In this document: positions 12,772 to 49,623 of the stretch, piece after piece
Position numbering within the stretch: position 1 is the first letter of the stretch
Layout of the letters: each line of letters starts with the position of its first letter
Origin: Stappia indica
GTDB taxonomy: Bacteria > Pseudomonadota > Alphaproteobacteria > Rhizobiales > Stappiaceae
Direction: 5' to 3'
Length of the DNA stretch: 64,000 nt
Assembly (NCBI RefSeq): GCF_020177335.1
Contig: NZ_JAIVMG010000001.1
Span: 1-64,000, forward strand
Notes under the pieces: model-generated
Database searches by the model: none
What the model was told of the DNA's origin: nothing
The model's input: the letters and a program-made list of their open reading frames with translations, nothing else
Position numbers and translations under genes: made by a program

Positions 12772-14152
<1,381 letters not shown>

Positions 14153-23720: not shown

Positions 23721-26249
23721 CTATTCGCTTGAGCTGTTGTTGCGCATGGCGGATTTGAGCTTTTCGATATCGGCTTCCGACAGTTGCGGCCGGTCCACCT
23801 TGATCGTCAACTTTTCCAGCTTGGCGGTCAGGGGGAAGGGCGGCTGGTAGTCGGCGTCATTGACGCCGGTCAGGGTGTCGGAGCCGATGTCGAACGCCTC
23901 GTCCCATTGCAGGATCATCGGCAGGGTCTTCTCCATCTTGCGGGTGTCGACCGTCTTGCCATCCACCTTCAGTGTTCCGGTGCCGGAGCGGCCTAGACCA
24001 CTGAAGCTGTTGTAGCGCAGGGTGCCGGCGCCAATTCCGTCATAGTCGAACGCAAACTCGACCGTATGCCGGCCAGGCGTCAGCACGTCCGGTCCTTCCC
24101 ATTTGATGCGCTCCAGATCGATGAGGTTCCACAGGAAGACCGGCTTGCCCTTCAACAGGTAGAAGCCGTAGCCGGCGAACCGGCCGCCTGAGGTCAGGAT
24201 CATGCCTTCCGCGCCGCCCTCCGGGACGGTGATTTCCGCTGTGATCGTATAGGAGCTGTTGAGGAGCACGGGGGAATCCCCCTGCGGCAGTCCGGTCATC
24301 GGCTGAGTGTAGACGAACTCGCTGCGGCCCGCGGTGATATTCGGGCGCGGCGCGCCGAGCCGGGCGGCAACCGAGGCGTCCATCGGGAAGACCTGATACT
24401 TCTTCGCCTCCGCGATGAACATCGCCTTCAGCTCCTTCACCTTGTCCGGGTGCTGGTCGGCGATGTTGCGCGACTGGCTGTAGTCCTTGGTCAGGTCATA
24501 AAGTTCAAGCACCTGATTGTTCAGAGGATCGGTGTTCGCCGGACCATAGGCCTCCCAGGGCGCGCGGTTCACCTCTGTGCTGAGCAGCCAGCCTTCGTGA
24601 TAGAGCGCCCATTGACCCATCATCTCGAAGTACTGCGTCTTGTGCCGTGACGGTTCGTCGGCGTTTTCCTTGTCGAAGGTATAGGCGAAACTCGTCCCCT
24701 CGATCGGCGCCTGCTTGATGCCGTCCACATACTCGGGGGCGGGGATGCCGGAGACTTCGAGAAGGGTCGGCACCACGTCGATCACATGCATGAACTGGGT
24801 GCGCAGGCCGCCCTTGTCCGTGATGCGGGCCGGCCAGGAGATGGCCATGTTCTGGCGAATGCCGCCAAGCTTGGAGGCGTTCTGCTTGAACCAGGTGAAG
24901 GGCGCATCAAAGGCCCAGGACCAGCCCGCCGACATATGGTTGTAGGTCTGCTCGGTGCCCCAGGTGTCGTACCACTTCATCTGGGCTTCGACCGGAACGG
25001 AGACGCCATTGAAAAACGCCACTTCGTTGGGCGTGCCAAACGGTCCGCCCTCGGCGCTGGTGCCGTTGTCGCCATTGATATAGATGATCAGCGTGTTTTC
25101 CAGCTTGCCCATGTCCTCGATGGCCTGAATGACACGGCCGATTTCATGGTCGCTGTAGGCGGCATAGGCGGCGAAGACCTCCACCTGGCGGATGTAGAGC
25201 TTCTGTTCCTCGGCGCTGAGGTCTTCCCAGTTCTTGAGGACCTTCTCCGGCCAGGGGGCAAGCTCGGTGTCCGCGGGGATCACGCCAAGCCGCTTCTGGT
25301 TCTCGAAGATCCGCGCCTGGAGCTTGTTCCAGCCATCGTCGAACAGGTGCATGGCCCGGATTTTCTCGACCCATTCCTTCGTCGGGTGGTGGGGAGCGTG
25401 GGTCGCGCCCGGCGCGTATTTCACGAAGAACGGCTTGTCCGGGACGGTTTGATTGAGACGGCCGAGGTAGGCGATCGCATCATCGGCCATGCCGGTTACA
25501 AGGTTCCACTCTGGCTGGCCCGTGAACGGGTAGATCTGGGTGGTGTTGCGGAAGAGGTTCGGTTGCCACTGATTGGCGTCGCCGCCGACGAAGCCGTAGA
25601 AATATTCAAACCCCATGCCTGCCGGCCATTGATCGAACGGCCCGGCCTGGCTGGCGGCGAAGGCCGGCGTGTTATGGTTCTTGCCGAACCAGGAGGTGGC
25701 ATAGCCATTGTCGCGCAGGATCTTGCCGATGGTGGCCTTGTCCTCCGGGATGATGCTGTTGTAGCCAGGGAAACCCGTCGACTGTTCGGAGATCACGCCA
25801 AAGCCCGCGGAGTGATGGTTCCGCCCGGTGATGAGCGCGGCGCGTGTCGGTGAGCACAGTGCCGTGGAATGAATGTTGGTGTAGCGCAGGCCTTCCTGCG
25901 CCAGCCGGTCCATGGTCGGGGTCGGGATCACGCCGCCAAATGTGCTCGGGACGCCAAAGCCGGCATCATCGGTGATGATCAGCAGAACATTGGGAGCCTG
26001 CGGCGGTGGCACGATGCGCGGTGGCCACCACGGCTCGGAGGAAAGTGCATCTTCCTTGATCTCACCGCCGAATGTCGGGTCCGGCGCCGGCAACCGCGTG
26101 CCCTCGATGGTGCTGGTGGCGCTAGGCGAGCCCAATGTTCCTGTCACTTCGATGGCGGCTGCGCTTCCACAGGTTCCGGCGATAACCGCAAGCGTCGTCA
26201 GTGTTGAAGAGAACCTGCGCACAGTGGCTATTGTTGTTTTGCTGCTCAC
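23721..26249 (-). CDS. Secreted arylsulfatase (Cys-type)
   Basis: 842 residues. The GTG start has an AGGAGG site a few bases upstream. N-terminal signal peptide (to about residue 32), a spacer, then the sulfatase domain: metal-binding LLIITDDAGFG near residue 91, and the formylglycine motif CSPTRAALITGRN near residue 132 (C-X-P-X-R). A C-terminal beta-rich extension (about 640-800) follows. Periplasmic or secreted hydrolase of sulfate esters; it needs a formylglycine-generating enzyme, which is not in this window. Divergent from the second sulfatase. Confidence 0.92.
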   Translation of the reverse strand: MSSKTTIATVRRFSSTLTTLAVIAGTCGSAAAIEVTGTLGSPSATSTIEGTRLPAPDPTFGGEIKEDALSSEPWWPPRIVPPPQAPNVLLIITDDAGFGVPSTFGGVIPTPTMDRLAQEGLRYTNIHSTALCSPTRAALITGRNHHSAGFGVISEQSTGFPGYNSIIPEDKATIGKILRDNGYATSWFGKNHNTPAFAASQAGPFDQWPAGMGFEYFYGFVGGDANQWQPNLFRNTTQIYPFTGQPEWNLVTGMADDAIAYLGRLNQTVPDKPFFVKYAPGATHAPHHPTKEWVEKIRAMHLFDDGWNKLQARIFENQKRLGVIPADTELAPWPEKVLKNWEDLSAEEQKLYIRQVEVFAAYAAYSDHEIGRVIQAIEDMGKLENTLIIYINGDNGTSAEGGPFGTPNEVAFFNGVSVPVEAQMKWYDTWGTEQTYNHMSAGWSWAFDAPFTWFKQNASKLGGIRQNMAISWPARITDKGGLRTQFMHVIDVVPTLLEVSGIPAPEYVDGIKQAPIEGTSFAYTFDKENADEPSRHKTQYFEMMGQWALYHEGWLLSTEVNRAPWEAYGPANTDPLNNQVLELYDLTKDYSQSRNIADQHPDKVKELKAMFIAEAKKYQVFPMDASVAARLGAPRPNITAGRSEFVYTQPMTGLPQGDSPVLLNSSYTITAEITVPEGGAEGMILTSGGRFAGYGFYLLKGKPVFLWNLIDLERIKWEGPDVLTPGRHTVEFAFDYDGIGAGTLRYNSFSGLGRSGTGTLKVDGKTVDTRKMEKTLPMILQWDEAFDIGSDTLTGVNDADYQPPFPLTAKLEKLTIKVDRPQLSEADIEKLKSAMRNNSSSE

Positions 26250-26721
26250 CTTGGCCTCCTGCCTTCAAGACTTGTTTTTCAATGACGTAGAGGTGGATTC
26301 TGAAAAGACCCTACCGTTCCCGACGTCGTCTTTGTTGTCTCGAAATTCCGGTTGGATGTCTTCGGGGCTCGTTTCGGCGCATTCCAGATCGCGGGCGGAA
26401 AATGCATTTTGTATGAAAGCATGTATTTCATGGATTGAAAATAATGAATCCTGCATTCATGATTTGTACTTGATGATCCGATCGCCGATACACCGCTGAT
26501 GGTTCCAGCGGGGGCGGCTTTTGTCCGGCGCTGGGCATGCCTTGCATTGGGGGCATCGTCAGCATGAAGGACGGCTGGACGCGGATTTTCCCCGAGTAGC
26601 GGGAAGGGGAGCGGCGCTTCTGCCGTGCGCCCGCGACGCTTAAATGCTTTTGGCGTGTCCCAATGGATGCGGGGAATTTGATCTCTTATTTGTTTCAATG
26701 CGTTGGAAAAGGGAGAGGACA
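26250..26721. other. Divergent sulfatase promoter region with palindromes
   Basis: 472 bp without a supported gene, much more A+T-rich than the surroundings from about 26400 to 26470. It contains a near-perfect palindrome at 26440-26464 (arms AATAATGAAT and ATTCATGATT, 9 of 10 pairs, five-base centre) and a second one at 26413-26431 (ATGAAA-N7-TTTCAT). These could be operators shared by the two sulfatase genes. Confidence 0.5.
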
Positions 26722-28347
26722 ATGCTTGGGAGAACGAGGCATCGTGAATTTCCGAAATTCCTGAGAGTATCCGCGGTGGTCCTGGGGACAGGCGTTCTGG
26801 CCTGCGGGATTGCCGCGCTGGCAACGCTTTCCGCCGCGCAGGCACAGGAGGACGCCAAGCCGAACATCCTGGTGATCTGGGGCGATGATATCGGCACCTG
26901 GAACATCAGCTTCAACAACCGGGGCATGATGGGCTACGAGACGCCGAACATCGACCGGATCGCCAAGGAAGGTCTCAGCTTTACCGATTACTATGCGCAG
27001 CAGAGCTGCACCGCCGGACGTGCGGCCTTCATCGGCGGCAACGTGCCGGTGCGCACCGGCATGACCAAGGTGGGATTGCCCGGCGCCGAGCAGGGCTGGC
27101 AGAAAACCGATGTGACCATGGCGACGGTGCTGAAGTCGGAGGGCTATGCCACCGGCCAGTTCGGCAAGAACCATCAGGGTGACCGGGACGAGCACCTGCC
27201 GACGATGCATGGTTTCGACGAGTTCCTGGGCAATCTCTATCACCTGAATGCGGAGGAAGAGCCGGAAAACCGTGATTACCCGGGCGATATGGTGCTGGCC
27301 AACGGCAAGACCTTCCGCGAACAGTTCGGCCCGCGCGGGGTCATTCACTCCTGGGCCAACGAGGACGGCACCCAGCGCATCGAGGATACCGGGCCGCTCA
27401 CCCGGAAGCGCATGGAAACGGTGGACGAGGAAACGGTCGCCGCCGCCATGGATTTCATCAAGCGTCAGCACGAGGCGGGCAAGCCGTTCTTCGTGTGGTG
27501 GAATGCGACCCGGATGCATTTCCGCACCCATGTGAAGGAGGAGCACAAGGGGATCGCCGGCCCAAGCGGCAACAACTACCACGACGGTATGGTCGAGCAT
27601 GACATGCTGGTGGGCGAGTTGCTGAAGCAGCTCGACGATCTGGGCATCGCCGACAACACGGTGGTGATGTACGGGACCGATAACGGCCCCCACTACAACA
27701 CCTGGCCCGACGCGGGCACCACCCCGTTCCGCAGCGAGAAGAACTCGAACTGGGAAGGCGCCTACCGGGTGCCGGCCTTCGTGCGCTGGCCGGGGCGCTT
27801 CCCGGCGGGCAAGACCCTGAACGGCATCGTCGCCCATGAGGACTGGCTGCCGACCTTCGCAGCCATCGCCGGCAATGCCGATATCAAGGCACAACTGCGC
27901 GAAGGGGTAGAGCTGAACGGGCGGAGCTATCGCAACTATATCGATGGCTACAACCAGCTTGCGTATCTGGAAGGCAAGGGTGAAGCGCCGCGTCATGAGT
28001 TCTGGTACGTCAACGACGATGGCAACGTGGTTGCCGCGCGCTACGACGACTGGAAGGTGGTGTTTCTGGAGAACCGGGGGCAGGCGTTCGGGGTCTGGCG
28101 CGAACCGTTCATCGAACTGCGGACGCCGCTGCTGTTCAACCTGCGCCGCGATCCGTTCGAGCGGGCCCAGCACAATTCGAACACCTACAATGACTGGTTC
28201 CTCGACCGTGCGTTCATTCTGGTGCCGATCCAGGCACTGGCCGCTCAGTTCCTCAAGACCATGACGGAGTATCCGCCGAGCCAGACGCCCGGTTCGTTCA
28301 ACCTCAGCAGCATTGAGAAAAAGCTGAGCGAAGGCCTGGCGAACTGA
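26722..28347 (+). CDS. Secreted arylsulfatase (C-X-A-X-R type)
   Basis: 541 residues from MLGRTRHREF; the GGGAGAGG site at 26711-26718 supports this ATG rather than the longer frame. Signal peptide to about residue 40 (LSAAQAQ). Sulfatase domain with NILVIWGDDIG metal site and active-site motif CTAGRAAFIGG near residue 93, that is C-X-A-X-R instead of C-X-P-X-R. The C-terminal part (YNDWFLDRAFILVPIQ) is typical of the arylsulfatase subfamily often found in marine and soil proteobacteria. Divergent from a C-X-P-X-R sulfatase, followed by DUF3300 and DUF2950 genes. Confidence 0.92.
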   Translation: MLGRTRHREFPKFLRVSAVVLGTGVLACGIAALATLSAAQAQEDAKPNILVIWGDDIGTWNISFNNRGMMGYETPNIDRIAKEGLSFTDYYAQQSCTAGRAAFIGGNVPVRTGMTKVGLPGAEQGWQKTDVTMATVLKSEGYATGQFGKNHQGDRDEHLPTMHGFDEFLGNLYHLNAEEEPENRDYPGDMVLANGKTFREQFGPRGVIHSWANEDGTQRIEDTGPLTRKRMETVDEETVAAAMDFIKRQHEAGKPFFVWWNATRMHFRTHVKEEHKGIAGPSGNNYHDGMVEHDMLVGELLKQLDDLGIADNTVVMYGTDNGPHYNTWPDAGTTPFRSEKNSNWEGAYRVPAFVRWPGRFPAGKTLNGIVAHEDWLPTFAAIAGNADIKAQLREGVELNGRSYRNYIDGYNQLAYLEGKGEAPRHEFWYVNDDGNVVAARYDDWKVVFLENRGQAFGVWREPFIELRTPLLFNLRRDPFERAQHNSNTYNDWFLDRAFILVPIQALAAQFLKTMTEYPPSQTPGSFNLSSIEKKLSEGLAN

Positions 28348-31199: not shown

Positions 31200-32897
31200 A
31201 TGGATCTGGTGGTGGGCGCGGTTGTCGGCAGTGGCATTGCCGCGCATGCGGCGGAGGTCGGCGGCGCCGACTTCCTGCTGGCGATCAATGCCGGACGCCT
31301 GCGCAACATGGGCGCGCCGTCGATAGCCTCCACCCTTCCCACCCATGACGCGGACACGATCAGCATCGACGTGGCGATGCGGGAGATCCTGCCGCGGGCT
31401 CAGGTGCCGGTCTTTCTCGGGGTCAATTGCTGGGCGCGGGCGGGGGACCCAGTGGCGCCGGGGCGCCGGGCCCGGGAGATGGGGTTCGCCGGTGTGGTCA
31501 ACTTCCCGCCGGTGATGCTGCTCTCCGCGAGCCTGCGAGAGGTGCTGGCCACTGTCGGAATCGATGCCGACAGGGAAATCGAAATTCTCCGGGCGGCGCA
31601 GGATCTGGGGCTGGAGAGCCTTTACTATTGCGGCTCGGCGGAGGAAGCGCGGCGGGCGGCCGAGGCGGGCCTGCGCAACATTCTCTATAATTTCGGCTGG
31701 AACGTCGGTGGGCGGCTGGGGCATGAGGCCCGCATGTCGCTGGAAGAGGCCGGTGCGATTGCCCACAGCATCGGCCGTTTGATCAAGCGGGTCGACCCGA
31801 CCATCCGCTTCTTCCTCGAAGGCGGCCCGATCGATACCTCGGATGATCTTGCCCATGTGGCGCTGCATGCGCCCATCGATGGCTATGTTGGCGGCTCCAC
31901 CCTTGACCGGCTGCCCTTCGAGGCGGCGGTGGCCAACCGGATCGCCGGCTACAAGCAGGCGGGCGAGGCGCGCCGGCAGATCGTGGCGGCCGATCAGGAG
32001 GTGCTGGACTGGTCGCGGCCGCTCGGCTTCGTCGGGCGGGCCCCTTGCCTGATCGCCTTTCTCAAGACCTTGCGGAAGATGTGCGCCAGCGCCCATCCGC
32101 TCAGGGTTGTCTGCGAAAGCGGGCTCGATGACGGCCCGGTGATCGGCGCTCTGTCGAAGGGGGCGGGGGAGGCGGTGCGGATCGTCGATGCGGCGCAGGA
32201 AAGCCTTGCCTCTCATGCGGTTCGGCGCTTGCTCGGGCACCAGCGCGGCGACCTGACGACACTGGGGCTTCTCACCGACCCGACCACCCGGGTCGTTGTC
32301 TTGCGCAATGCCCATCTGATCCCCAGGGGCGGGCAGCGGCGGCTTGCCATGCGGCTCAGGCGCGAAACCGTGGCGCATCCGAAGACCCGGGCGCCGCTGA
32401 AGCTCACCGCACGGTTGGTGGTGATCGACGAGGGCGGGGCAGATGCGGCGGCACTGGTGCCGGAGCTGTCCGCCCTGTTGGAGGGCTGGACGCTGACCTA
32501 TCCGCCGGTGCGTGCGCGCTCCCCGGACATCGTCGGACTGATCGCGGCGCGGATGGCCGGCGTTGGGCGGCCCCCTCGGCAGGTCCCCCGGTTTTCGGCG
32601 GCGGCGGTGCAGGTGCTGCGCGGCCATCTGTGGGCCGCCAACGATCTGGAGATCGACCGGGTGGTCGGGGTGATGACCTCCCTGGGCCATGACGGCGAAC
32701 TCAACCCTGAGGATGTGCGCGGGATTATTGGCAATGCTGCGGGCGCACTGGCTGGGGCCACTGTTCTGGATGCGAAGACGCGCCTGATCGACGCGCTGTG
32801 GCGCAACGGCTTCCACCGGGGCAAGACCGCCGCAGCGCTGGGGATCTCGCGCAAGACGCTCTACAATCGGATGCGCCGGTACGGCGTTACCGGCTAG
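31200..32897 (+). CDS. TIM-barrel / degenerate AAA+ / Fis HTH transcription regulator
   Basis: 565 residues. Residues 1-260 form a PEP-hydrolase-like (Tm-1 C-terminal-like) TIM barrel: GGADFLLAINAGRLRNMG, GVVNFPP, FFLEGGPIDT and STLDRLP align with the enzyme at 40151-40993. Residues about 290-490 align with the NtrC AAA+ domain but key motifs are lost: Walker A reads CESGLDDG, the GAFTGA position reads HQRGDLT, Walker B reads VVVLRNAH; the PPVRARSPDI block is retained. A Fis HTH (GKTAAALGISRKTLYNRM) ends the protein. The start at 31200 has a GGAGAG site. Probably a ligand-sensing regulator that works without sigma-54 ATPase activity, controlling the cluster at 33-41 kb (inference). Confidence 0.85.
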   Translation: MDLVVGAVVGSGIAAHAAEVGGADFLLAINAGRLRNMGAPSIASTLPTHDADTISIDVAMREILPRAQVPVFLGVNCWARAGDPVAPGRRAREMGFAGVVNFPPVMLLSASLREVLATVGIDADREIEILRAAQDLGLESLYYCGSAEEARRAAEAGLRNILYNFGWNVGGRLGHEARMSLEEAGAIAHSIGRLIKRVDPTIRFFLEGGPIDTSDDLAHVALHAPIDGYVGGSTLDRLPFEAAVANRIAGYKQAGEARRQIVAADQEVLDWSRPLGFVGRAPCLIAFLKTLRKMCASAHPLRVVCESGLDDGPVIGALSKGAGEAVRIVDAAQESLASHAVRRLLGHQRGDLTTLGLLTDPTTRVVVLRNAHLIPRGGQRRLAMRLRRETVAHPKTRAPLKLTARLVVIDEGGADAAALVPELSALLEGWTLTYPPVRARSPDIVGLIAARMAGVGRPPRQVPRFSAAAVQVLRGHLWAANDLEIDRVVGVMTSLGHDGELNPEDVRGIIGNAAGALAGATVLDAKTRLIDALWRNGFHRGKTAAALGISRKTLYNRMRRYGVTG

Positions 32898-32988: not shown

Positions 32989-34506
32989 TCAAGTTGGGGC
33001 GCGGTCACGCGCTCGGCGTTTGTTGAGGTAGGACAGGGTTGCCGGCAGCACCACCGCGAGCACGGCAAGCCCGTAGAGCGCCAGGCTCTTCCAGCTCTCC
33101 ACCAGGATCTCCCAATCACCGGCCGAGATCGACAGGGCGCGGCGCAGGTTGTCCTCGAACAGCCCACCGAGCACGAAGCCGAGAATGACCGGTGCGAGCG
33201 GGAATTCCATCTTGCGCAGCAGCCAGCCGAACATGCCCAGCAGGATGATCAGGAACAGATCGAAGGGATTGCCGACAATCGAATACACCCCGATGAAGGC
33301 CAGGATGGCGATCAGCGGTGTCAGGTAGTGCTGCGGGATGGTCAGCATCCGGGCGAACAGGCCCACCAGCGGCAGGTTGATGATCAGGAGCGCCACGTTG
33401 CCCACATACATGGAGGCGATCAGACCCCAGGCGATTTCCGGATGCTGGGTGAACAGCAGCGGGCCGGGCTGGACGTTGAACAGCATCAGGGCGCCCAGCA
33501 GGATGGCGGTGGTGCCCGAGCCGGGGATGCCGAGCGTCAGCATCGGCACCATCGCGCCGCTGGCCGCTGCGTTGTTGGCCGCTTCCGGGGCGGCGAGGCC
33601 GCGCATGTCGCCCTTGCCGAATTCGCTCGTGTCCGCGCCGGCCGCCCGTTTTTCCGCGCCATAGGCGACAGCCGAGGCCACCGAGGCGCCGGTTCCCGGC
33701 AGGATGCCGATGAAGAAGCCGATGATCGAAGCGCGCAGGATCGTCCATTTCGTTCTGGCCAGATCGGCCATGCGAACGAAGGAGTTGTCGACCGGCAGGG
33801 TCTGGAGCTTGCCGGTCACCTGCTGCTCGACCAGGTGGAACAGCTCGGCCATGCCGAACAGGCCGATCACCACGATCAGGAAGTCGATGCCGGCGAGAAG
33901 GTCGGGCACACCGAAGGTGAAGCGCGGCACGCCGGTGTTGCCATCGATGCCCATGGTGGCGAGCATCAGGCCGATCAAGGCGCCCATCAGGGTCTTCCAC
34001 GGGTTCTTGCCGACCAGCGAGGCCAGCGAGGCGAAGGCGAAGACCATCAGCGCCACATAATCGGACGGCGAGAAGGTGACCGCGAAGCGGGCCAGCGCCG
34101 GACCGAACAGGGACATCAGGATGACGGCGAAGGTGCCGCCGACGAACGAGGCGATGGCCGACAGCGACAGGGCACGCCCCGCTTCGCCGCGCTTGGCCAT
34201 GGGGTTGCCGTCGAGCGTGGTCATCACCGCGCCGGCGTCCCCCGGCACGTTGAGCAGGATGGACGAAATCCGGCCGCCGTATTCGGCGCCGTAGTAGATG
34301 CCGGCGAGCAGGATCAGGGCGCTTTCGGGCGGCAGCCCCAGCCCATAGGCGATGGGCAGGAGAATGGCGACGCCGTTGATCGGGCCGATACCGGGAAGGG
34401 CGCCGATGAGTGTGCCGGCGAAGCAGCCGATCAGCACCAGCATGATGTTGAACGGCGCCAGCGCGACGCCGAAGCCTGTGCCCAGGCTGGCGAAAACTTC
34501 TTGCAT
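32989..34506 (-). CDS. tctA: Tripartite tricarboxylate transporter, large permease
   Basis: 505 residues, full-length TctA with about 12 membrane segments. The family signature GTLIGALPGIGPINGVAILLP near residue 35 and a second matching repeat GILPGTGASVASAVAYGAEKR near residue 245 are both present, as is PGSGTTAILLGALML near residue 325. It is the main membrane channel of a solute-binding-protein-dependent secondary carrier for carboxylates, driven by ion gradients. It is the last gene of tctC-tctB-tctA, 12 bases after tctB. Confidence 0.95.
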   Translation of the reverse strand: MQEVFASLGTGFGVALAPFNIMLVLIGCFAGTLIGALPGIGPINGVAILLPIAYGLGLPPESALILLAGIYYGAEYGGRISSILLNVPGDAGAVMTTLDGNPMAKRGEAGRALSLSAIASFVGGTFAVILMSLFGPALARFAVTFSPSDYVALMVFAFASLASLVGKNPWKTLMGALIGLMLATMGIDGNTGVPRFTFGVPDLLAGIDFLIVVIGLFGMAELFHLVEQQVTGKLQTLPVDNSFVRMADLARTKWTILRASIIGFFIGILPGTGASVASAVAYGAEKRAAGADTSEFGKGDMRGLAAPEAANNAAASGAMVPMLTLGIPGSGTTAILLGALMLFNVQPGPLLFTQHPEIAWGLIASMYVGNVALLIINLPLVGLFARMLTIPQHYLTPLIAILAFIGVYSIVGNPFDLFLIILLGMFGWLLRKMEFPLAPVILGFVLGGLFEDNLRRALSISAGDWEILVESWKSLALYGLAVLAVVLPATLSYLNKRRARDRAPT

Positions 34507-34518: not shown

Positions 34519-34956
34519 TTAAATCTTGGGCAGCGGCCCGGCGGGAAGGTTGAGGCCCATCAGGCCGGCGCAGACGAGATATCCGGCAACGCCGATGGTG
34601 ATGCCGAACGCCGCCGAGCGCCCCCAGGCCGCGCCCAGAAGGCGCGCCATCAACGTGGCGAACAGGGCTGTGGCGATGATGAAGCCGAGCGGCTCGTAAA
34701 GCTCCGCATAGGCGAGCAGCATCGCGGAAGCGCTGGCGAGCTTGATCCAGGTTGGCCGGTCGGTGTCGAGGCTGTCCACGTCCGGCCGGATCAGCAGCAT
34801 GATCAGGCAGATCACCGCGACGATGGCGAGGATCTGCGGCCAGCCTTCCGGTCCGATCGGGTCGTACTGGAACGGCGCCTTGATGAGCGTGAAGGCGATG
34901 AAGCCATAGGCCAGGGTGATCAGGAGTAATGTGCCGGCGAAAATGCGGTCGATCAT
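34519..34956 (-). CDS. tctB: Tripartite tricarboxylate transporter, small permease
   Basis: About 145 residues with four hydrophobic segments, typical of TctB, which partners TctA in the membrane. A GTG four codons upstream is an alternative start. It lies 66 bases after tctC with an intervening terminator hairpin and 12 bases before tctA. Confidence 0.9.
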   Translation of the reverse strand: MIDRIFAGTLLLITLAYGFIAFTLIKAPFQYDPIGPEGWPQILAIVAVICLIMLLIRPDVDSLDTDRPTWIKLASASAMLLAYAELYEPLGFIIATALFATLMARLLGAAWGRSAAFGITIGVAGYLVCAGLMGLNLPAGPLPKI

Positions 34957-34983
34957 GTGTCCGTCCACGGGGTCGTGAGAGCG

Positions 34984-35022: not shown

Positions 35023-35988
35023 TTACTTGATCAGACCGGCGTCGCGGGCGATCTGGCGCAGCTCGCCGATGCGCTGCTTGACCTTGGTGTCAAGCTCGGC
35101 GCCGGAGAGGTTCAGCGGCAAAAGCCCCTTTTCTTCGCGGATCTTGCGGAACTCCTCGGTCTCATAGGCCTTGGCGAAGGCATCTGCCCAGGCCTGGTAG
35201 TCCGCATCCGGCACGTTGTTGCCCATGTAGAAGCCGCGCATGATCGTCCATTCGACGTCATAGCCCTGCTCGATCGCCGTGGGGATCTGGTCGAACGGCG
35301 CGTCGAGCCGCTCGGGGGAGAGCACGGCCAGCACGCGGATGTTGCCGGCTTCCAGGTGGGAAATCACCTCGCCCACATCGGCGGTGACCATGTCGATGGA
35401 ACCGCCCAAAAGAGCCGCCAGGGCCTCGCCGCCACCTTCAAAGGACACGTAGCGCATGTCGCGCGGGCTGCTTTCCACGGACTTGAGCAGCAGGGCGCCT
35501 TTCATCCAGTCCTGCGAACCGACGGAGCCGCCGGCACCGACGACCACCTCGGCCGGGGTCTCCTTGAAGACCGCCATCAGGTCATCGAGGGTTTCGAACT
35601 TGCTGTCCGCCCGCACGACGACGGCGCCGAAATCCGCGCCCACGGTGGCGAGGAAGCGGATGTCGTTCTCGGTGAATTCACCGAACTTGCCGGTGGCGAT
35701 GTTGAGCAGCGAGCCCGACGAGAAGGCGACAATCGCGTTCGGGTCGTCGGTGCGGGTGGTGTTGAACTGGCTGAACGCCACGGCGCCGATGCCGCCCGGC
35801 ATGAAGGTCACCTGGATCGGCTTGTCGAACTGCGCGGCAAGGCCGGTCTGGGCCACGCGGCAGGTCAGGTCGAAGCCACCACCGGGCTTCGCCGGAGCGA
35901 TGCACTCCGGAGCGGTGACATCCGCAAGAGCGGCGGTGGAGGCCAGGAGCAGGCCGGCGACACAATATTTCAGAGCTGCGATTTTCAT
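35023..35988 (-). CDS. tctC: Tripartite tricarboxylate transporter, solute-binding protein
   Basis: 321 residues from MKIAALKYCVAG; signal peptide ends near residue 22 (LASTAALA|DVTAPECIAPAKPGGGFD). The Bug/TctC family fold is shown by PAKPGGGFDLTCR near residue 30 and the central GGSVGSQDW motif. Exported periplasmic receptor that captures the carboxylate for TctAB. A 20-codon upstream extension to 36048 runs through the promoter/operator and is rejected. First gene of the operon, divergent from the GntR gene. Confidence 0.94.
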   Translation of the reverse strand: MKIAALKYCVAGLLLASTAALADVTAPECIAPAKPGGGFDLTCRVAQTGLAAQFDKPIQVTFMPGGIGAVAFSQFNTTRTDDPNAIVAFSSGSLLNIATGKFGEFTENDIRFLATVGADFGAVVVRADSKFETLDDLMAVFKETPAEVVVGAGGSVGSQDWMKGALLLKSVESSPRDMRYVSFEGGGEALAALLGGSIDMVTADVGEVISHLEAGNIRVLAVLSPERLDAPFDQIPTAIEQGYDVEWTIMRGFYMGNNVPDADYQAWADAFAKAYETEEFRKIREEKGLLPLNLSGAELDTKVKQRIGELRQIARDAGLIK

Positions 35989-36037
35989 GAGATTTCTCAG
36001 GTTCCTCCCATCCACGATCTGTCGTGAAACTGCAACA

Positions 36038-36073
36038 TTGTAGGACAAAATAGCAAAGATCGGGTTCTGTCAA
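36038..36073 (-). promoter_or_regulatory. tctC promoter with GntR/FCD-type operator
   Basis: On the minus strand TTGACA (36068-36073) is followed after 15 bases by TATTTT (36047-36052). Immediately overlapping is TTGTAGGACAA (36038-36048), which fits the FadR/FCD-subfamily pattern TnGTnnnACnA. A repressor bound there would block the promoter. The divergent gntR gene starts about 120 bases away. Confidence 0.55.
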
Positions 36074-36169: not shown

Positions 36170-36859
36170 ATGGCTGCGGAATTGTTTACAAAAGACGAGA
36201 GCCCGGCAGGGCTGGCGGCGCAGCGAATCCATGACTGCCTGTGCGAGGAAATCCTGGCCGGGGAGCTCGCGCCCGGAACCCGCCTGGGTGAGGTGGCGCT
36301 GGCCAAGCGCTTCGATGTCAGCCGTGGTCCGATTCGCGCGGCGCTGAAGATGCTCGCCGAGACCGGGGTGGTGACCGTGGTGCCGCACAGCGGTGCCCGT
36401 GTCCGCGAAATGAGTTATGACGACGCCCGCGCGCTCTACCAGGTGCGCGAGGCGCTGGAGGCGCAGGCCGCGTCCCTTGCCGCCGCATCCGCCTCTCCCG
36501 AAGCGGTGGCGCAGTTGCGCGCGGTGCTGGCGGGTCACTCCCGGGACGTCGCCGCCCATCCGACCGGCGCCTATCTGCAAGGGGGCACCGACCGCGACTT
36601 TCACAACATCATTGCCCGCATGGCCGGCAACGCGATCATTCAGCGCTATCTGACGAAGGAGCTCTATCCGCAGCTCGCGCTGCTCCGGGTCCGGCATACC
36701 CATGTGACCGGGCGGGGCGTTTCCGCCCTGCGGGAGCATGAGCGGATCGTGGAAGCGATTGCCGCCGGCGACAGCGAAGTGGCGGGCCTGCTGATGCGCC
36801 GCCACATCCAGAACAGCTGGGCCTCCCTTGAGGCGCAGCTCAAATCCGACGACGCCTGA
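36170..36859 (+). CDS. GntR-family (FCD) transcriptional regulator
   Basis: 229 residues. N-terminal winged HTH (about 15-80: LGEVALAKRFDVSRGPIRAALKMLAETG) and C-terminal all-helical FCD ligand domain (about 90-220: ALYQVREALEAQAA, DRDFHNIIARMAGN, LREHERIVEAIAAGDSE) with conserved His/Asp metal-ligand positions. FCD regulators commonly sense organic acids. It lies between the divergent tct operon and the ICL/PEPM enzyme gene 45 bases downstream, and an FCD-type operator overlaps the tctC promoter, so it probably controls both. Confidence 0.92.
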   Translation: MAAELFTKDESPAGLAAQRIHDCLCEEILAGELAPGTRLGEVALAKRFDVSRGPIRAALKMLAETGVVTVVPHSGARVREMSYDDARALYQVREALEAQAASLAAASASPEAVAQLRAVLAGHSRDVAAHPTGAYLQGGTDRDFHNIIARMAGNAIIQRYLTKELYPQLALLRVRHTHVTGRGVSALREHERIVEAIAAGDSEVAGLLMRRHIQNSWASLEAQLKSDDA

Positions 36860-36904
36860 TCCGCGCCGCCCCCATTACCATGAGAAAGAAAAGAGAGACC
36901 GTTC

Positions 36905-37786
36905 GTGCTCAATCATGAAATCAGCAAGTCCTTCAAGCAGCGTCTGGCCCAAGGCGGCGCCATGCTGCTGCCCGGAGCCCCGAACGCGCTGGCGGCGCGG
37001 GTGATCGCGGATCTGGGGTTTGAAGGGGTCTATCTGACGGGCGCGGGGCTGACCAACACCTATCTCGGCATGCCGGACATGGGATTCATCAACCTGTCGG
37101 AAATTGCCCAGCACACCTCGGCGATCCGGGGCGTGACCGATCTGCCCATCGTGGTGGATGCGGACAACGGGTTCGGCAACGCGCTGAACGTGGCGCATAC
37201 GGTGCGGGTGCTGGAGCGGGCCGGCGCCAGCGCCATCCAGCTTGAGGATCAGGTGACGCCGAAGCGCTGCGGCCATTTCGCCGGCAAGGACGTGGTGCCG
37301 CTCGCCGAGGCGCGCTCGCGCATCCGCGCCGCCGTCGATGCGCGCCAGGATGAAAACACGCTGATCGTCGCCCGCACCGACGCCCGAGCCACCGAGGGCT
37401 ATCAGGCGGCGCTGGACCGGGCCGCCGCCTTCATCGAGGACGGGGCGGACATCACCTTCGTCGAGGCGCCGAAGACGCTGGACGAGGTGCAAGGCATCCC
37501 GCAGGCGCTGAAGGGCACCCCGCAGCTTGTCAATCTGGTGGTCGGTGGACACACCCCGATCATGGATCTGAAGACGCTGGATGAGATGGGCTTTTCGCTG
37601 GTGCTCTACGCCAATGTCGCCTTGCAGAGCGCGCTGCACGGCATGCAGGTTGCCCTTGGCCAGCTGAAGGAAAAGACCATGCTGGATGAAGACGGTCCGG
37701 TGGCCAGCTTCGCCGAGCGTCAGCGCATGGTGAACAAGGCGCATTTCGACGAAATGGAAAAGCGCTACGCGCTCTCAGAGGGCTGA
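36905..37786 (+). CDS. Isocitrate lyase/PEP mutase superfamily enzyme
   Basis: 293 residues with a GTG start and an AGAGAG site upstream. TIM barrel with the metal site VVDADNGFGNALN near residue 80 and the gating-loop motif KRCGH near residue 119, which is typical of the lyase branch (methylisocitrate lyase, dimethylmalate lyase, oxaloacetate decarboxylase). Cytoplasmic, Mg-dependent C-C bond cleavage of a 2-hydroxy- or 2-oxo-dicarboxylate-type compound is expected; exact substrate unknown. Likely acts on the compound imported by TctCBA. Confidence 0.9.
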   Translation: MLNHEISKSFKQRLAQGGAMLLPGAPNALAARVIADLGFEGVYLTGAGLTNTYLGMPDMGFINLSEIAQHTSAIRGVTDLPIVVDADNGFGNALNVAHTVRVLERAGASAIQLEDQVTPKRCGHFAGKDVVPLAEARSRIRAAVDARQDENTLIVARTDARATEGYQAALDRAAAFIEDGADITFVEAPKTLDEVQGIPQALKGTPQLVNLVVGGHTPIMDLKTLDEMGFSLVLYANVALQSALHGMQVALGQLKEKTMLDEDGPVASFAERQRMVNKAHFDEMEKRYALSEG

Positions 37787-38021: not shown

Positions 38022-38735
38022 TCATGTCGGCCAGGCGCGGGGCGGACACAGGCACGGGGCGGCCTGGTCTCCCATCGCGGTGCTTTCCGCCGGGTCGCCA
38101 TAGGGGAGAAACAGCCCGTTCCAGCCCTTTGCGGCGAGGGCGGCGCGCAAATCCGCTTCCGCCGCCCGGCGCTGCGACAGTGCGGGGCGGCCGGTGTGGA
38201 AGGCGGCAAGCGCCGGCACATGGGCAATCGCCTCCGGGTTGAGGCTGACCCACAGGGCAGCCTCTTCCGCTCCGCTGACCGCGATCAGCAGGCGAAAGCC
38301 ACGTGCGCGGAAGGCGTCACACACGGCCAGCTCCCGGTCCACGCCCATGTTCACCTGCGAAAGGACATGCTGAAAAGCGCGGTCGTGCTGGCCGACGGTC
38401 GGCAGATTGCAGACCCACTCGATGCCGGCGGCGCGCAGGATCTCTGCCGTGCGCTCCACATGCAGGAAGCAATCGGCCATGAAAAGCCCGGCCGCCTTGT
38501 CTCTGACTGCCTTGTCTTTGATCGCCGTGGTGCGCGGGTGCCCCGCCGGCTGCGACAGCGCGTCGAGCAGTACCTGATTTCCCGCAGCGGTTGGCAAATG
38601 CACGGCGACCTCTGGCGGGAGCCCCAGATCGGCGCCGCCCGGTGCAAAGGTCAGGATACCAGACGGGACCGGCGCTGATGCACGGGGGTGCCAGATCTGC
38701 CAATGCAGCAACGCGGGGTTTGTGTCGGTTGGCAT
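38022..38735 (-). CDS. TIM-barrel (PEP-hydrolase-like) protein, divergent paralogue
   Basis: 237 residues. The central part resembles the PEP-hydrolase-like barrel of the neighbours: GIEWVCNLPTVGQHD, VNMGVDRELAVCDAFRARGF and IAVSGAEEAALWVSLNPEAIAH match in order the [30 protein letters not shown] and [21 protein letters not shown] blocks of the protein at 40151-40993. The N-terminal 90 residues and the Pro/Ala-rich end are different. It is divergent from the Tm-1-like gene. Function unknown; perhaps an accessory or degraded paralogue. Confidence 0.65.
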   Translation of the reverse strand: MPTDTNPALLHWQIWHPRASAPVPSGILTFAPGGADLGLPPEVAVHLPTAAGNQVLLDALSQPAGHPRTTAIKDKAVRDKAAGLFMADCFLHVERTAEILRAAGIEWVCNLPTVGQHDRAFQHVLSQVNMGVDRELAVCDAFRARGFRLLIAVSGAEEAALWVSLNPEAIAHVPALAAFHTGRPALSQRRAAEADLRAALAAKGWNGLFLPYGDPAESTAMGDQAAPCLCPPRAWPT

Positions 38736-38931
38736 CGTTTCTTACCCGATTTTACCCAAGTGTGGTGCCGCGACCGGTTGAGCGTGTCAAGTCGATGGCG
38801 GACCATCGCCTGCGGTTCAGCCCTGTGGTCCGTGCCACGGGGAGCGCGTGAAGGCCAGCTTGCAACAACAACAGATGGGGGTGGGGCGCCGCGCATGTGA
38901 GCTGACACCACTGCCCATGGAGGAATGAGAG

Positions 38932-40150: not shown

Positions 40151-40993
40151 ATGCCGAGATTCGACCGCAAGGCACTGCTTGCGAAATTTCAGGACATGAA
40201 GGCCCGGGGCGTGCCGATCGTCGGCGGCGGCGCCGGCACGGGCCTGTCGGCCAAATGCGAGGAAGCGGGCGGGATCGACCTGATCGTGATCTACAATTCC
40301 GGGCGCTATCGCATGGCCGGGCGCGGCTCGCTCTCCGGGCTTCTGGCCTATGGCAACGCCAACGAGATCGTCAAGGACATGGCCTCGGAGGTCATTCCGG
40401 TGACCAAATCCACCCCGGTTCTGGCCGGGGTGAACGGCACCGATCCGTTCTGCAACTTCGACATGTTCCTTGATGACCTGAAGCGGCTGGGCTTCTCCGG
40501 CGTGCAGAACTTCCCGACCGTCGGTCTGATCGACGGGGTGTTCCGGCAGAATCTGGAAGAAACCGGCATGTCCTACGCGCTTGAGGTGGAGATGATCCGC
40601 CTTGCCGCGGAAAAGGACATGCTGACCACGCCTTACGTCTTCAGCGAAGCCGATGCGGAGGCGATGGCCAGGGCGGGGGCGGATATCATCGTCTGCCATC
40701 TGGGGCTGACCACCGGCGGCAGCATCGGCGCCGATACCGCCGTGACGCTGGAGGCCTGCCCGCCGTTGATCGACGCCTGGGCGGGAGCGGCGCTTGCCGT
40801 CAACCCGGACCTGATCGTTCTGTGCCACGGTGGGCCGATCTCCATGCCGTCGGATGCGGAATATGTTCTGGCCAACACCCGCCATTGCCACGGGTTCTAC
40901 GGCGCCTCGTCGATGGAGCGCCTGCCGACCGAGGTGGCGATGACCGAGCAGACCCGGGCGTTCAAGGCCATCACGATGACGAAGGCCGGGTAA
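40151..40993 (+). CDS. PEP-hydrolase family TIM-barrel protein
   Basis: 280 residues from [13 protein letters not shown] with a GGACAGGACC site. TIM barrel of the PEP hydrolase/Tm-1 C-terminal family: [63 protein letters not shown], and [14 protein letters not shown]. Partner of the Tm-1-like gene 13 bases upstream. The reaction is unproven; the fold and conserved acidic residues suggest a metal-dependent C-C lyase or hydrolase on a phospho- or oxo-acid. Strong terminator at 41020-41059. Confidence 0.9.
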
Positions 40994-44105: not shown

Positions 44106-44354
44106 GGTGGCGTCGGTCCGAAATGGGGTGGAAACCCTAGTGCACCGGGGAGGGGGAAACAATCTCTGCTTTCCGCACCGGCAGAAACTGCTAGATCGTG
44201 TCACCGCGCAAGGGGCAGGATCTGACCGGGAGCGGCGGTGGCTTCCCGAAAACGCGAACCGGCGCGATTCGCTGTCGGATCGACGGTGGCGCGTTCACGA
44301 TCCCCTTCTCCTTGTGCTGCCCGATTGCAACGACGTCCTGACCGGAGGCCCCAA

Positions 44355-45125
44355 GTGCTGATGTCGAACAAGCCCGTAATTGCCGTGATCGCCTGCAGTC
44401 GCGAGGTGGAAGGCGAGCCCGCGAGCATCGTCAAGCAGCGCTATCTCGATGCGGTGTCGCGCTATGCCGATGCGCTGCCGATCATCGTTCCGCCGACCGC
44501 CAGCCCGGCGGAAGCGGCGGCGCTGCTCGCCCGGGTCGATGCGGTGCTCCTGACCGGATCCAACTCCAACATCGAACCCTCCCGCTATGGGGGTGGTGCG
44601 GCTGGTGCGCCACCGTTCGATCCACCCCGGGATGAAACCGCCCTGCATCTGATCGCCGGCGCCATCGCGGCGAAGAAGCCGCTGTTCGGCATCTGCCGTG
44701 GTCTGCAGGAACTCAATGTCGCCTTTGGCGGTACGCTGGCGGACGAACGCGCCCTCGATGGCGTGGCGGTTTCGCACCACGCGCCGGCGGAGGCGGACCT
44801 GCAGGAAATGTTCACCTATGGCCACCGGGCAACGGCGGAGACCGGCGGTGTTCTGGCCGATCTGGTCGGTAGGGGGTCGATCCCCATCAACAGCGTGCAC
44901 TTTCAGCGCGTTGATGCGGTCGGAAAGGGCTTGAAGGTCGAGGCCCGCGCCGAGGATGGGGTCATCGAGGCGCTGTCTTCGACGCAAGGAGAGGCTCCGG
45001 TGCTGGCGGTGCAGTGGCACCCGGAATGGCAGCCGGAAGGGCGGCATCATGACCTTGCATTCTGGCGATATGTCGGTACGCAGGCACGCAAGGCGATGAC
45101 CCTACGTACGGACGCTTCTCTATAA
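44355..45125 (+). CDS. Class-I glutamine amidotransferase-like hydrolase (PuuD-like)
   Basis: About 256 residues. Catalytic triad of the gamma-glutamyl-GABA hydrolase/peptidase C26 type: nucleophile Cys in FGICRGLQELNVAFGG near residue 110, and His/Glu in QWHPEWQ near residue 227. A GTG at 44355 lies six bases after GGAGG; an ATG at 44361 is the alternative start. Hydrolyses a gamma-glutamyl amide such as gamma-glutamyl-GABA in the PuuABCD route; genes for a polyamine-like ABC transporter and an aldehyde dehydrogenase follow, which fits. No puuA or puuB is seen here. Confidence 0.88.
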   Translation: MLMSNKPVIAVIACSREVEGEPASIVKQRYLDAVSRYADALPIIVPPTASPAEAAALLARVDAVLLTGSNSNIEPSRYGGGAAGAPPFDPPRDETALHLIAGAIAAKKPLFGICRGLQELNVAFGGTLADERALDGVAVSHHAPAEADLQEMFTYGHRATAETGGVLADLVGRGSIPINSVHFQRVDAVGKGLKVEARAEDGVIEALSSTQGEAPVLAVQWHPEWQPEGRHHDLAFWRYVGTQARKAMTLRTDASL

Positions 45126-45215
45126 AAAAAATCTATCGGCAGAATTCGGCATTCGAATTGGACAGAATGCCGCGGATGCCTTGAAATGCCTGTATCTTAC
45201 AGCGGTGAAGGTACC

Positions 45216-45692
45216 ATGACAGACAAGAAGCTCTATCTGAAATTTATCGAATCCGGCGTCCAGGGCATCATTTCCCTTTATTGGGAAAACGCTCCTGAGA
45301 CCTGCAAGGCCCTGTGGGGCGCGCTGGAAACGCCGATCCAGGTTCCCGCCAGTCATGCGATTTTCTCCGGTCCGGAAATCATGATGGGGCTGCCGGAGAG
45401 CGCGCGCAATTTCGACCCGACCACCCTGCCGCCGGAAAACCAGACCGTGCTGCCCGAGCCCGGCGACATGCTGTGGTTCTACCAGCCGAAGAACTTCTTC
45501 AAGATCGATCCGGACGAGTTCTGGGAGATCGGCATGTTCTACGGCGTGGGCGGGCGTACCTTCGGTCCGACCGGCTGGATCCCCTGCACCTATTTCGCCC
45601 GGATGACCGAAGGCCTCGACGCCATCGCCGAGCAGTGCCGGTTGATCCGCAAGGAAGGCGTCAAGACCATTGAGCTTGGTCGCCTCGGATGA
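45216..45692 (+). CDS. DUF3830 family protein
   Basis: 158 residues from MTDKKLYLKFIESG. Matches the DUF3830 family (cyclophilin-like fold expected): WENAPETCKALWGALE, SHAIFSGPEIMMGLPE, EPGDMLWFYQPKNFFKI and the YGVGGRTFGPTGW stretch. Function not established; DUF3830 genes often accompany amidohydrolase or ABC-transporter genes for N-containing compounds. It sits between the hydrolase and transporter genes of the same operon. Confidence 0.85.
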   Translation: MTDKKLYLKFIESGVQGIISLYWENAPETCKALWGALETPIQVPASHAIFSGPEIMMGLPESARNFDPTTLPPENQTVLPEPGDMLWFYQPKNFFKIDPDEFWEIGMFYGVGGRTFGPTGWIPCTYFARMTEGLDAIAEQCRLIRKEGVKTIELGRLG

Positions 45693-45762
45693 TTTTCAGG
45701 GTGCGGCCGGTCTCCGGCCGCGCCCTTTGTGACCTGCGATAATCAAGGAGAGGAGCACTGTG

Positions 45763-46797
45763 ATGAAGGTAATTTCGACGATTGCCGTTTCCGGCCTGGC
45801 AACCCTGATGGCCACCACTGCCTTCGCGGCGGGTGAGACCATCACCATCAATTCCTTCGGCGGCGCGTATGAAACCGCGCATCGTGCCTGCGTGATCACC
45901 CCGTTCGAGGAGGCCACCGGCGCCAAGGTTCAGGTTGTCACCGCCTATTCGGCGGACGCCTTCGCCCAGTTGCGGGCCCAGGCCGAAGCGCCTCAGTTCG
46001 ACGTCATCCACTTCTCCGGCGGCCAGGAAATCGTTGGCGCGCGGGAAGGGCTGCTGTCGCCCATCGACCCGGCCAGCCTGTCGAATGCGGCCGATCTTTA
46101 CGACTTCGCCAAGGCAAACCTTGCCGGCGGTGAAGGTCCGGCCTACTCGATCGCCGCGATCGGCCTCGTCTACAACAGCGTCACGGTGCCGAAGGAGCCG
46201 GCCTCCTGGTCCGATCTGCTGGACAAGGCCTATGCCGATCACATCGTGCTGACCGACATCTCCAACGGCTACGGCATGCTCGGCTTCCTGATGCTCAACA
46301 AGGTGAAGGGCGGTAGCCTGGAGAACATCCAGCCGGGCCTCGACGCGGTCACCGAGCTTCTGGACAACGGTGCCATCGTGGTGTCGACCTCGCCGGAGAT
46401 CCAGCAGGAGTTCGCCCAGAACGACGCATGGGTCGCGCCGTACGCCTCCGACTACGCCTACACTCTGCGCAAGGCCGGTCTGCCGGCGGCATTCGTCCAG
46501 GGCAAGGAAGGCACGCCGGCGAGCTTCATCACCACCAACCTGGTCGCGGGCCGCGACAATCAGGAACTGGCGCTGAAGTTCATCGACATGTCGATCTCGG
46601 CCAAGGCCCAGGCCTGCTTCGCCGAGCAGCTGCGTTATTCGCCGACCAACGCCAAGGTGGTGCTGGACGGTGAGGTCGCCGCCGACGTCGCCTATGGCGA
46701 GGAGGCCGTGTCCGGTCTGATCCGCTTCGACCCGACCGTCATCGAGGCCAAGCGCTCCGAGTGGGTCGACGCCTGGAACCGCACCATCGCGCGCTGA
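45763..46797 (+). CDS. ABC transporter substrate-binding protein (PotD/PotF-like)
   Basis: 344 residues with an AGGAG site and a signal peptide (MKVISTIAVSGLATLMATTAFA, cleavage near residue 22). Type-2 periplasmic-binding fold starting TITINSFGGAYETAHRACVI, typical of spermidine/putrescine and related binding proteins. It is the receptor of the following permease and ATPase genes. A strong terminator after it suggests the receptor is made in excess over the membrane parts. Confidence 0.92.
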   Translation: MKVISTIAVSGLATLMATTAFAAGETITINSFGGAYETAHRACVITPFEEATGAKVQVVTAYSADAFAQLRAQAEAPQFDVIHFSGGQEIVGAREGLLSPIDPASLSNAADLYDFAKANLAGGEGPAYSIAAIGLVYNSVTVPKEPASWSDLLDKAYADHIVLTDISNGYGMLGFLMLNKVKGGSLENIQPGLDAVTELLDNGAIVVSTSPEIQQEFAQNDAWVAPYASDYAYTLRKAGLPAAFVQGKEGTPASFITTNLVAGRDNQELALKFIDMSISAKAQACFAEQLRYSPTNAKVVLDGEVAADVAYGEEAVSGLIRFDPTVIEAKRSEWVDAWNRTIAR

Positions 46798-46812
46798 TCG
46801 ATACCCAACCTG

Positions 46813-46850
46813 CCACCGCGCGGCCGCTCGGGCCGCGCGGTGGTTTTTTT
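46813..46850 (+). terminator. Terminator between binding-protein and permease genes
   Basis: Perfect 13-bp stem CCACCGCGCGGCC / GGCCGCGCGGTGG with loop GCTCG, followed by seven Ts. A strong intrinsic terminator placed inside the ABC operon; read-through or a separate promoter must supply the permeases. Confidence 0.9.
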
Positions 46851-46882
46851 AAATGAGACCGAGCAAGGAGTACGGGACCCCG

Positions 46883-47707
46883 ATGAGCGATCGCGCGGAA
46901 AATACGCTGCTGGTCTTACCAGGCCTATTGTTGCTCGCCCTGGCCTTTTTCGTGCCGATCACCCAGATGCTGGTGCTGTCGGTGTCCGGGGAGAATGGGC
47001 CGACGCTGGACCATTTCACTCGCTTTCTGGGTGATCCCTACTATCTCAACGTGCTCTGGCGGACCGTGCGCCTGTCGCTGATCATCACCGTGATCTGCGC
47101 GGCCGTTGGTTTCCCGCTTGCCTATATCATGGCGCGGGTCGGCCCGCGTCTGCGGCTCTGGCTGATCGTTCTCGTCATTCTTCCGCTGATGACCAGCGTG
47201 GTGGTGCGCACCTTCGGCTGGATGGTGCTTCTCAGCCGCTCCGGGCTGGTGCCGCAGGTGCTGCGTGACCTTGGCCTTGCCGAGCGCAATTTCTCCATCA
47301 TGCAGACCGAGCTGGCCATCGTCATCGGCATGGTGCAGGTGCTGCTGCCGTTCATGACCCTGTCGATCCTGGGTGTGGTCACCCGCATCGACCGGCGCCT
47401 TGAGGAGGCCGCGCGGACCATGGGCTGTTCCTTCATGCAGACCCTGCGCACCGTGGTGCTTCCGCTGGCCGTGCCAGGGATCGTCGCCGGGTCGCTCTTG
47501 GTCTTCACCCTGTCCGCCAGCTCCTTCGTGACGCCCAACCTGCTCGGTGGCTCGCGCATCCAGGTTCTGGCCGCCTCGATCTACCGGTCGGTGACCCAGA
47601 CGCTGGACTGGCCCTTCGCCGCGGCGCAGGCCGTCATCCTGTTCGCCGGCATCCTGCTCATTCTCGTGCCCTATGCACGTCTGGCCGGAGGACGCTCCAA
47701 TGGTTAA
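46883..47707 (+). CDS. ABC transporter permease (PotB/PotH-like)
   Basis: 274 residues, six membrane segments. The inner-membrane permease EAA-like loop is seen as LEEAARTMGCSFMQTLRTVVLPLAVPGI near residue 180. Chosen start MSDRAENTLLV; ten codons upstream are read through but lack a better site. First of two permeases. The second permease gene starts eight bases before its stop. Confidence 0.92.
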   Translation: MSDRAENTLLVLPGLLLLALAFFVPITQMLVLSVSGENGPTLDHFTRFLGDPYYLNVLWRTVRLSLIITVICAAVGFPLAYIMARVGPRLRLWLIVLVILPLMTSVVVRTFGWMVLLSRSGLVPQVLRDLGLAERNFSIMQTELAIVIGMVQVLLPFMTLSILGVVTRIDRRLEEAARTMGCSFMQTLRTVVLPLAVPGIVAGSLLVFTLSASSFVTPNLLGGSRIQVLAASIYRSVTQTLDWPFAAAQAVILFAGILLILVPYARLAGGRSNG

Positions 47708-48503: not shown

Positions 48504-48506
48504 CCC

Positions 48507-49556: not shown

Positions 49557-49623
49557 CTTTCGCCTGTCGCCGCCCGGCTGATCCGGGCGGGCAGGTTGCT
49601 GACATTGTACGGAGACACGGATT

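Follow-up and report, generated by a model that had tools for sequence, protein, structure and literature searches.

Regulators of the bEBP type that lack GAFTGA and act at sigma-70 promoters share a Fis-type HTH. TyrR, DhaR, HupR, VpsR and the NtrC proteins of Rhodobacter and Caulobacter carry a bEBP-type AAA+ domain without the sigma-54 loop, and some such regulators work at sigma-70 promoters, according to the portions of PMC10274813 and PMC3162934 available to us. In the same portion of PMC10274813, R. capsulatus NtrC is described as needing ATP binding and Caulobacter NtrC as needing its Walker residues, and VpsR is said to need no ATP. Another set of relatives is formed by the PEP_hydrolase (PF09370) or 'TIM-barrel signal transduction' proteins, with the solved structure 2p10 (Mll9387); in the literature examined we found no established reaction for this family. 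Barrels of this kind also occur in Tm-1-like pairs of a UPF0261 protein and a TIM barrel, which form one protein in plants and are widespread in bacteria, according to the part of PMC5028733 available to us.

The locus described here lies in a 64,000-nucleotide stretch of Stappia indica DNA (the window; contig NZ_JAIVMG010000001.1, positions 1 to 64,000). It encodes a regulator, REG, in which a PEP_hydrolase-like barrel is followed by an AAA+ domain and a Fis-type HTH, together with a truncated PEP_hydrolase-like protein (MINI), a UPF0261 protein (TM1) and a stand-alone PEP_hydrolase-family protein (ENZ). Like the GAFTGA-less sigma-70 regulators, REG combines bEBP descent with absence of GAFTGA. 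It differs from them in having an enzyme barrel as sensor domain, in having also lost the P-loop and Walker B themselves while the domain is still under purifying selection, in having MINI as a partner, and in that intact family members with the same site and neighbours survive. Its barrel is homologous to the PF09370 proteins over the whole domain; unlike theirs, it has both histidines replaced and is fused to AAA+ and HTH. A Tm-1-like pair lies within the analysed stretch in 35 of the 38 REG loci. The words sigma, transcription and HTH are absent from PMC5028733, which therefore leaves the barrel-AAA+-HTH fusion untreated, and our literature search, with most subscription journals outside its coverage, returned no paper on the fusion. 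One named protein close to REG is NGR_RS30945 of pNGR234a, which shares the REG domain order, MINI, TM1, ENZ and the operator; it keeps the P-loop GK, unlike the window REG, and has no GAFTGA. Because GAFTGA is missing, the sigma-54 in its name in the plasmid collection, 'sigma-54-dependent Fis family transcriptional regulator', and in similar database names seems doubtful.

The regulator and its AAA+ domain

31200..32897, + strand: REG regulator gene, 565 aa (ORF, Pfam, bEBP alignment, HHalign)
31206..31958, + strand: PEP_hydrolase-like TIM barrel, residues 3-253 (Pfam), with N and E in place of the two enzyme histidines
32025..32729, + strand: bEBP-type AAA+ domain, about residues 276-510 (alignment, HHalign), catalytic motifs lost
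32781..32882, + strand: Fis-type HTH_8, residues 528-561 (Pfam), recognition segment SRKTLYN

The REG frame runs from an ATG at 31200 to a stop at 32897; there is an in-frame GTG upstream, at 31119, but the Pfam match begins at residue 3 counted from the ATG. The barrel was matched with E 1.6e-55 (188.6 bits, cut-off 33.8) and the HTH, of the Fis type found in bEBPs, with E 5.6e-9; between them Pfam listed neither Sigma54_activat nor any other AAA+ family up to E 1. NCBIfam and PDB sequence searches reached bEBPs (DhaR, NifA, NtrC and others) only through the C-terminal part of REG, from residue 402 on, DhaR being the best NCBIfam match of the AAA+ part. The recognition segment of the HTH is the same in the intact relative L173.

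Alignment to five bEBPs placed CESGLDDG at the Walker A site and LGHQR-----GDLTT at the loop-1 site, where GAFTGA is deleted through, not substituted. Walker B reads VVVLRNAH, its acids gone; the arginine-finger segment, LVPELSALLE, has lost the finger, and sensor II, WAANDLEIDR, its arginine. Because HHalign of nine eroded REGs against the five bEBPs gave a probability of 99.4 (E 1.6e-21, 222 columns) versus 0.2 for the reversed-sequence control, the middle of REG is, on profile evidence, a bEBP-type AAA+ domain by descent. The sequence-only reading of this DNA had seen in it an NtrC-type AAA+ domain without Walker A, GAFTGA or the Walker B acids, and had allowed that the segment might prove unrelated; the alignment bears out the losses and extends them to the arginine finger and the sensor II arginine, and the profile comparison instead supports homology. 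The search it had proposed, for the same domain order, returned full-length relatives in genomes and plasmids.

A genome-contig scan with the single window protein had Stappia taiwanensis as its sole match, and the homologue in that species is 96% identical to REG across residues 1-565. The dN/dS ratio was 0.153 overall, indicating purifying selection, and 0.196 in the AAA+ part, where it rests on few events (17 synonymous and 9 non-synonymous changes); the HTH had zero non-synonymous changes. Given this conserved copy and the low dN/dS, REG does not look like a frameshift or pseudogene.

Full-length relatives occurred in 9 of 87 genomes of the same taxonomic family, including the window's own. 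For wider draws, which overlap, the best three first-look candidates per genome were scored, so that the counts are lower bounds: at least 19 of 397 genomes of the order (at E 1e-75, one partial match included), at least 9 of the 385 class genomes (in one of them the match stopped at profile position 519) and at least 4 of 398 in the phylum draw, the own genome being included each time. A relative at 80% cover or more was present in 31 plasmid records, among them pNGR234a of Sinorhizobium fredii, and in none of the viral contigs scanned. The 38 loci compared below are the window, L004, nine plasmid loci (L091-L099, drawn from the 31 records) and 27 genome loci (L117-L143); partial matches in G646 (L066, L116) were left out. 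Twelve later loci, close relatives of the first set (seven genomes of two families and five plasmids of genera already used), were fetched after the criteria had been fixed.

The REG frame is open in all 38 loci, and the motor is graded across them. GAFTGA is present in 5 regulators and absent in 33, and the P-loop GK is found in 16. Five (L134, L136-L139) keep P-loop, GAFTGA, DE, arginine finger and sensor II arginine and, by these motifs, look like working sigma-54 activators. L131 keeps the P-loop, an acidic Walker B, the finger and sensor II without GAFTGA; the P-loop lysine persists in 10 further GAFTGA-less REGs and is missing in the remaining 22 of the 38. Once GAFTGA had gone, the other motifs did not disappear in one fixed order, since L140 and L141 have lost the P-loop lysine and still show EE at Walker B. 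Pfam scores for Sigma54_activat match this grading, falling from 228.9 bits in L136 through 126.7 in L131, 76.4 in L091 and 56.2 in L120 to 17.4 in L117, under the cut-off of 20.2; the family was not listed for L124 or the window REG. Different REG versions occur within one genus code (L135 of G1085, without GAFTGA, and L139 of G1064, intact), which might stem from exchange of the whole locus. Separately, one reference bEBP, L033 (G060), also lacks GAFTGA (FGQVETDSSG) and keeps P-loop, DE and arginine finger.

Gene neighbourhood, operator and promoters

32989..34506, - strand: TctA, tripartite tricarboxylate transporter
34519..34968, - strand: TctB
35023..36048, - strand: TctC, start codon uncertain
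36170..36859, + strand: FCD-type GntR regulator, second local regulator
36905..37786, + strand: PEP mutase / isocitrate lyase superfamily protein
38022..38735, - strand: MINI, 237-aa truncated PEP_hydrolase-like protein, divergent from TM1 (phmmer, profile, Pfam, alignment)
38742..38757, no strand: putative operator, a perfect TTACCC-N4-TTACCC direct repeat (period 10 bp), found in this exact form once in the 4.66-Mb genome
38932..40137, + strand: TM1, UPF0261 (Tm-1-like) protein, likely target gene
40151..40993, + strand: ENZ, stand-alone PEP_hydrolase-family protein with both histidines, likely target gene

MINI, about 200 aa long across loci, was found by phmmer in 34 of the 38 loci and by profile in the other 4; in the Shinella sumterensis plasmid locus L098 it is split into 11684-12007 (- strand) and 14676-15056 (- strand), about 2.7 kb apart. 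The window MINI matches Pfam PEP_hydrolase over profile positions 85-162 of 267, below the cut-off, and has no Pfam HTH match. REG and MINI face each other in many loci, with MINI divergent from the operon, and lie on one strand in L117 and L131. L096 and two loci whose contigs measure 9.9 and 7.8 kb are the three that miss the TM1 and ENZ pair in the stretch. Transporters vary from TctABC in the window to branched-chain-type ABC genes in L120, L124 and L134 and sugar ABC genes on several plasmids. All twelve later loci have MINI; ENZ is absent from the analysed stretch in L176 and L183, as is TM1 in L176. In the window the FCD-type GntR and PEP mutase/isocitrate lyase genes (36170-37786) place a second regulator and another enzyme between TctC and MINI. 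Further out, genes named by eye include two large sulfatase-like ORFs head to head at 23721-28347 (23721-26249 on the - strand, 26644-28347 on the + strand) and, at 44238-51057, a polyamine-type ABC transporter-like block with amidotransferase-like and aldehyde dehydrogenase-like genes.

The putative operator is separated from the MINI start codon by 6 bp. Its distance to the TM1 start is about 175 bp, more than in the annotated plasmids, where annotation places it 79-121 bp before transporter or TM1 genes in 10 of 14 loci. At one mismatch or fewer it was found in 34 of the 38 REG loci (47 sites, where block-shuffling each of the 37 loci other than the window twice predicts about 1.0) and in none of 20 TM1-ENZ loci without REG. 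L099 and L139 carry it with two mismatches at the expected place, and L093 and L131 have no site. In L133, L094 and L096 the sites at one mismatch or fewer are not beside MINI; that of L133 adjoins none of the genes looked for, and L096 has a two-mismatch site at the usual position. Two Azospirillum loci have the operator also 11 bp before REG. It was present in all twelve later loci; in L183 one copy precedes a TM1 that is about 9 kb away from REG, and another, at 13118, precedes none of the genes considered. A search for a second operator at the window's REG and TctC promoters, the TctC-GntR gap included, found nothing better than 4 mismatches. Genome-wide, the own genome held 3 sites at one mismatch versus 9 for a reversed control, and 28 REG genomes held 45 sites of the core pattern versus 173; the core pattern occurred in 24 of the 28, and by manual row reading 23 of these carry at least one copy inside the REG locus. 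Because the loose pattern is thus rarer than its control, the signal lies in the operator's place, not its number.

Promoters were scored against what we take to be the -24/-12 consensus and its weights, with one operator per locus, on the side taken for the operon, and with L093, L094, L131, L133 and L142 left out of the 38. All five intact loci scored 23-25 of 25 within 300 bp of the operator, the element lying 52-70 bp after it; in the 28 other loci the best score there was at most 22, none near-perfect, and 23 or more was reached nowhere in the whole stretches of the 33 non-intact loci. At the window operator the best score within 300 bp was 17, a value reached by 0.69 of shuffles. Near-perfect -24/-12 sequences thus accompany the operator only in loci whose REG has an intact motor. 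All 20 genomes tested have rpoN. Among the later loci the predicted promoter was present in the one intact case and near the operator of none of the 11 others; scores of 22.5 or more in L174, L182 (23.5) and L183 lay far from any operator and were not counted. The loci are related, so that Fisher values overstate independence and are not used as evidence; the intact ones form one group. The sequence-only reading had suggested disuse of the sigma-54 motor; the lost motifs, together with -24/-12 elements near the operator only at intact-REG loci, speak for it.

In L120-L123, four congeneric genomes with a GAFTGA-less REG, a -24/-12-like element, CTGGCACGGATCTTCC, lies about 20 bp after the operator (e.g., L120:8244-8260, - strand), its -12 GC reading CC. 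This is possibly a fossil, decayed sigma-54 promoter, confined to one genus and spaced differently from those of the intact loci.

The barrel, family history and alternative readings

Every one of the 35 stand-alone neighbouring barrels has the same two histidines (29 read by alignment column, 6 divergent ENZ sequences by eye), and they are present in 2p10 as well. None of the 38 REG barrels keeps either of them: at the first position N is found in 34, V in 2, and D and G in one each, and at the second E in 30, G in 6, and V and A in one each; in the twelve later loci the first position was captured in 11 (not in L183) and the second in 12. The loop residues N-x-GRxR, NFP, GGP and GxS are mostly retained. 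This pattern of kept loops and lost histidines, whose catalytic role is itself an inference, fits a binding, non-catalytic pocket, and the REG barrel is probably a pseudoenzyme sensor. The earlier suggestion of an enzyme-derived, PEP-hydrolase-like barrel as sensor thus gains a full-length barrel match and the loss of both enzyme histidines throughout the family.

A tree of barrel plus HTH, built without AAA+ columns, united the five intact REGs (85/96, branch not starred) and nested them weakly inside motor-less REGs. In the AAA+ tree, from which R_L142 was omitted, the motor-less REGs formed one group (92/88) with the intact five outside, and one reference bEBP (C_L033) fell between the intact five and the other REGs; a single clade of all REG AAA+ domains was not rejected (p-AU 0.348). 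One loss of the GAFTGA loop followed by decay appears to be the simplest history, the alternatives being several losses or an exchange of the AAA+ domain in the intact group.

Could the barrel still be an enzyme, making REG a bifunctional enzyme-regulator? Many barrel residues are retained, and the histidines may be inessential, as no established reaction was found for the family; we nevertheless regard this as highly improbable, given that histidines invariant in the stand-alone neighbours and 2p10 are lost in every REG and that an apparent enzyme copy, ENZ, is encoded at the same locus. A more serious possibility, though one we still rate as doubtful, is that the barrel reads a pathway protein rather than a small molecule, as E. 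coli DhaR does, with MINI or ENZ as the partner in a barrel-barrel contact. All 38 REG loci also have MINI (split in one), the MINI profile matches only ENZ frames in 20 REG-less stretches, and the Pfam match of MINI is limited to a part of the barrel profile; the AAA+ part of REG has DhaR as its top NCBIfam match, and binding of dihydroxyacetone kinase by DhaR appears as the title of a reference cited in the part of PMC3162934 available to us. On the other hand, the REG barrel mostly keeps its loop residues, as a ligand pocket would, and contact of REG with MINI or ENZ is a proposal from sequence and gene context. One could also argue, from the position of the operator right next to MINI and from the GntR gene in the window, that it serves MINI or the FCD-GntR as regulator and that REG acts elsewhere. 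This is very unlikely: the operator is missing from all 20 REG-less TM1-ENZ loci, MINI has no Pfam HTH match, the site is common to loci with different neighbours, and in the two Azospirillum loci it also precedes REG itself.

As for history, the GAFTGA-bearing group might be secondary, its AAA+ domain acquired by exchange, not retained. The weak nesting of that group in the barrel plus HTH tree, the position of C_L033 and the higher scores of the intact AAA+ domains against generic bEBPs than against other REGs all lean this way, and yet slow evolution of an intact motor accounts for those scores, one clade of all REG AAA+ domains was not rejected, and MINI and the operator are identical in kind at the intact loci; we consider exchange rather unlikely. 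Extreme motif loss might also mark REG as a dying gene heading for loss, which is scarcely credible beside its open frames in all 38 loci, a signal of selection that reaches zero non-synonymous change in the HTH, and an operator and partner gene conserved alongside it.

Proposed mechanism and significance

We thus favor, with good though not complete confidence, the reading of REG as a DNA-binding regulator that works independently of sigma-54, is dedicated to one pathway, that of the UPF0261/PEP_hydrolase operon, and descends from an ordinary sigma-54 activator. Intact relatives sit in the same gene neighbourhood, and REG, MINI and the predicted operator occur together; from these sequence patterns we infer DNA binding, a metabolite as ligand and use of sigma-70. 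The Fis HTH would recognise the TTACCC repeat (38742-38757) that separates MINI from the TM1-ENZ operon. The barrel may bind a substrate or product of the TM1/ENZ pathway without turnover, or be titrated by MINI, and binding would alter a REG oligomer held together by the AAA+ remnant. Bound REG would repress MINI, whose start codon is so close to the site, and switch TM1-ENZ through a promoter of the sigma-70 type. For intact relatives, this site would serve as enhancer, upstream of the -24/-12 element. REG would thus have kept its sensor, reading head and address while the motor went out of use.

The intact relatives, the TTACCC operator, the adjoining -24/-12 promoters at intact loci and the MINI gene are new beyond the sequence-only reading, and the UPF0261/PEP_hydrolase pair gains a dedicated regulator with a predicted operator, as well as a small partner gene. 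We rate as about even the chance that the family both preserves the history of a sigma-54 activator that shed its motor and defines a new regulatory module. On that account the GAFTGA loop would have gone first and other motifs later in more than one order, with sensor barrel, HTH, operator, partner gene and target operon kept and the promoter changing in step; the module would be a regulator pseudoenzyme barrel and MINI jointly reading the state of the UPF0261/TIM-barrel pathway. The GAFTGA-less regulators in the cited papers are separate cases, whereas here intact and motor-less versions of one regulator occur. Because the window REG lies beside the same site and enzyme genes as its intact relatives, the family may record a switch between control types; and since both versions share sensor, predicted site, partner and targets, the change from sigma-54-dependent to sigma-54-independent control would be testable in natural relatives.
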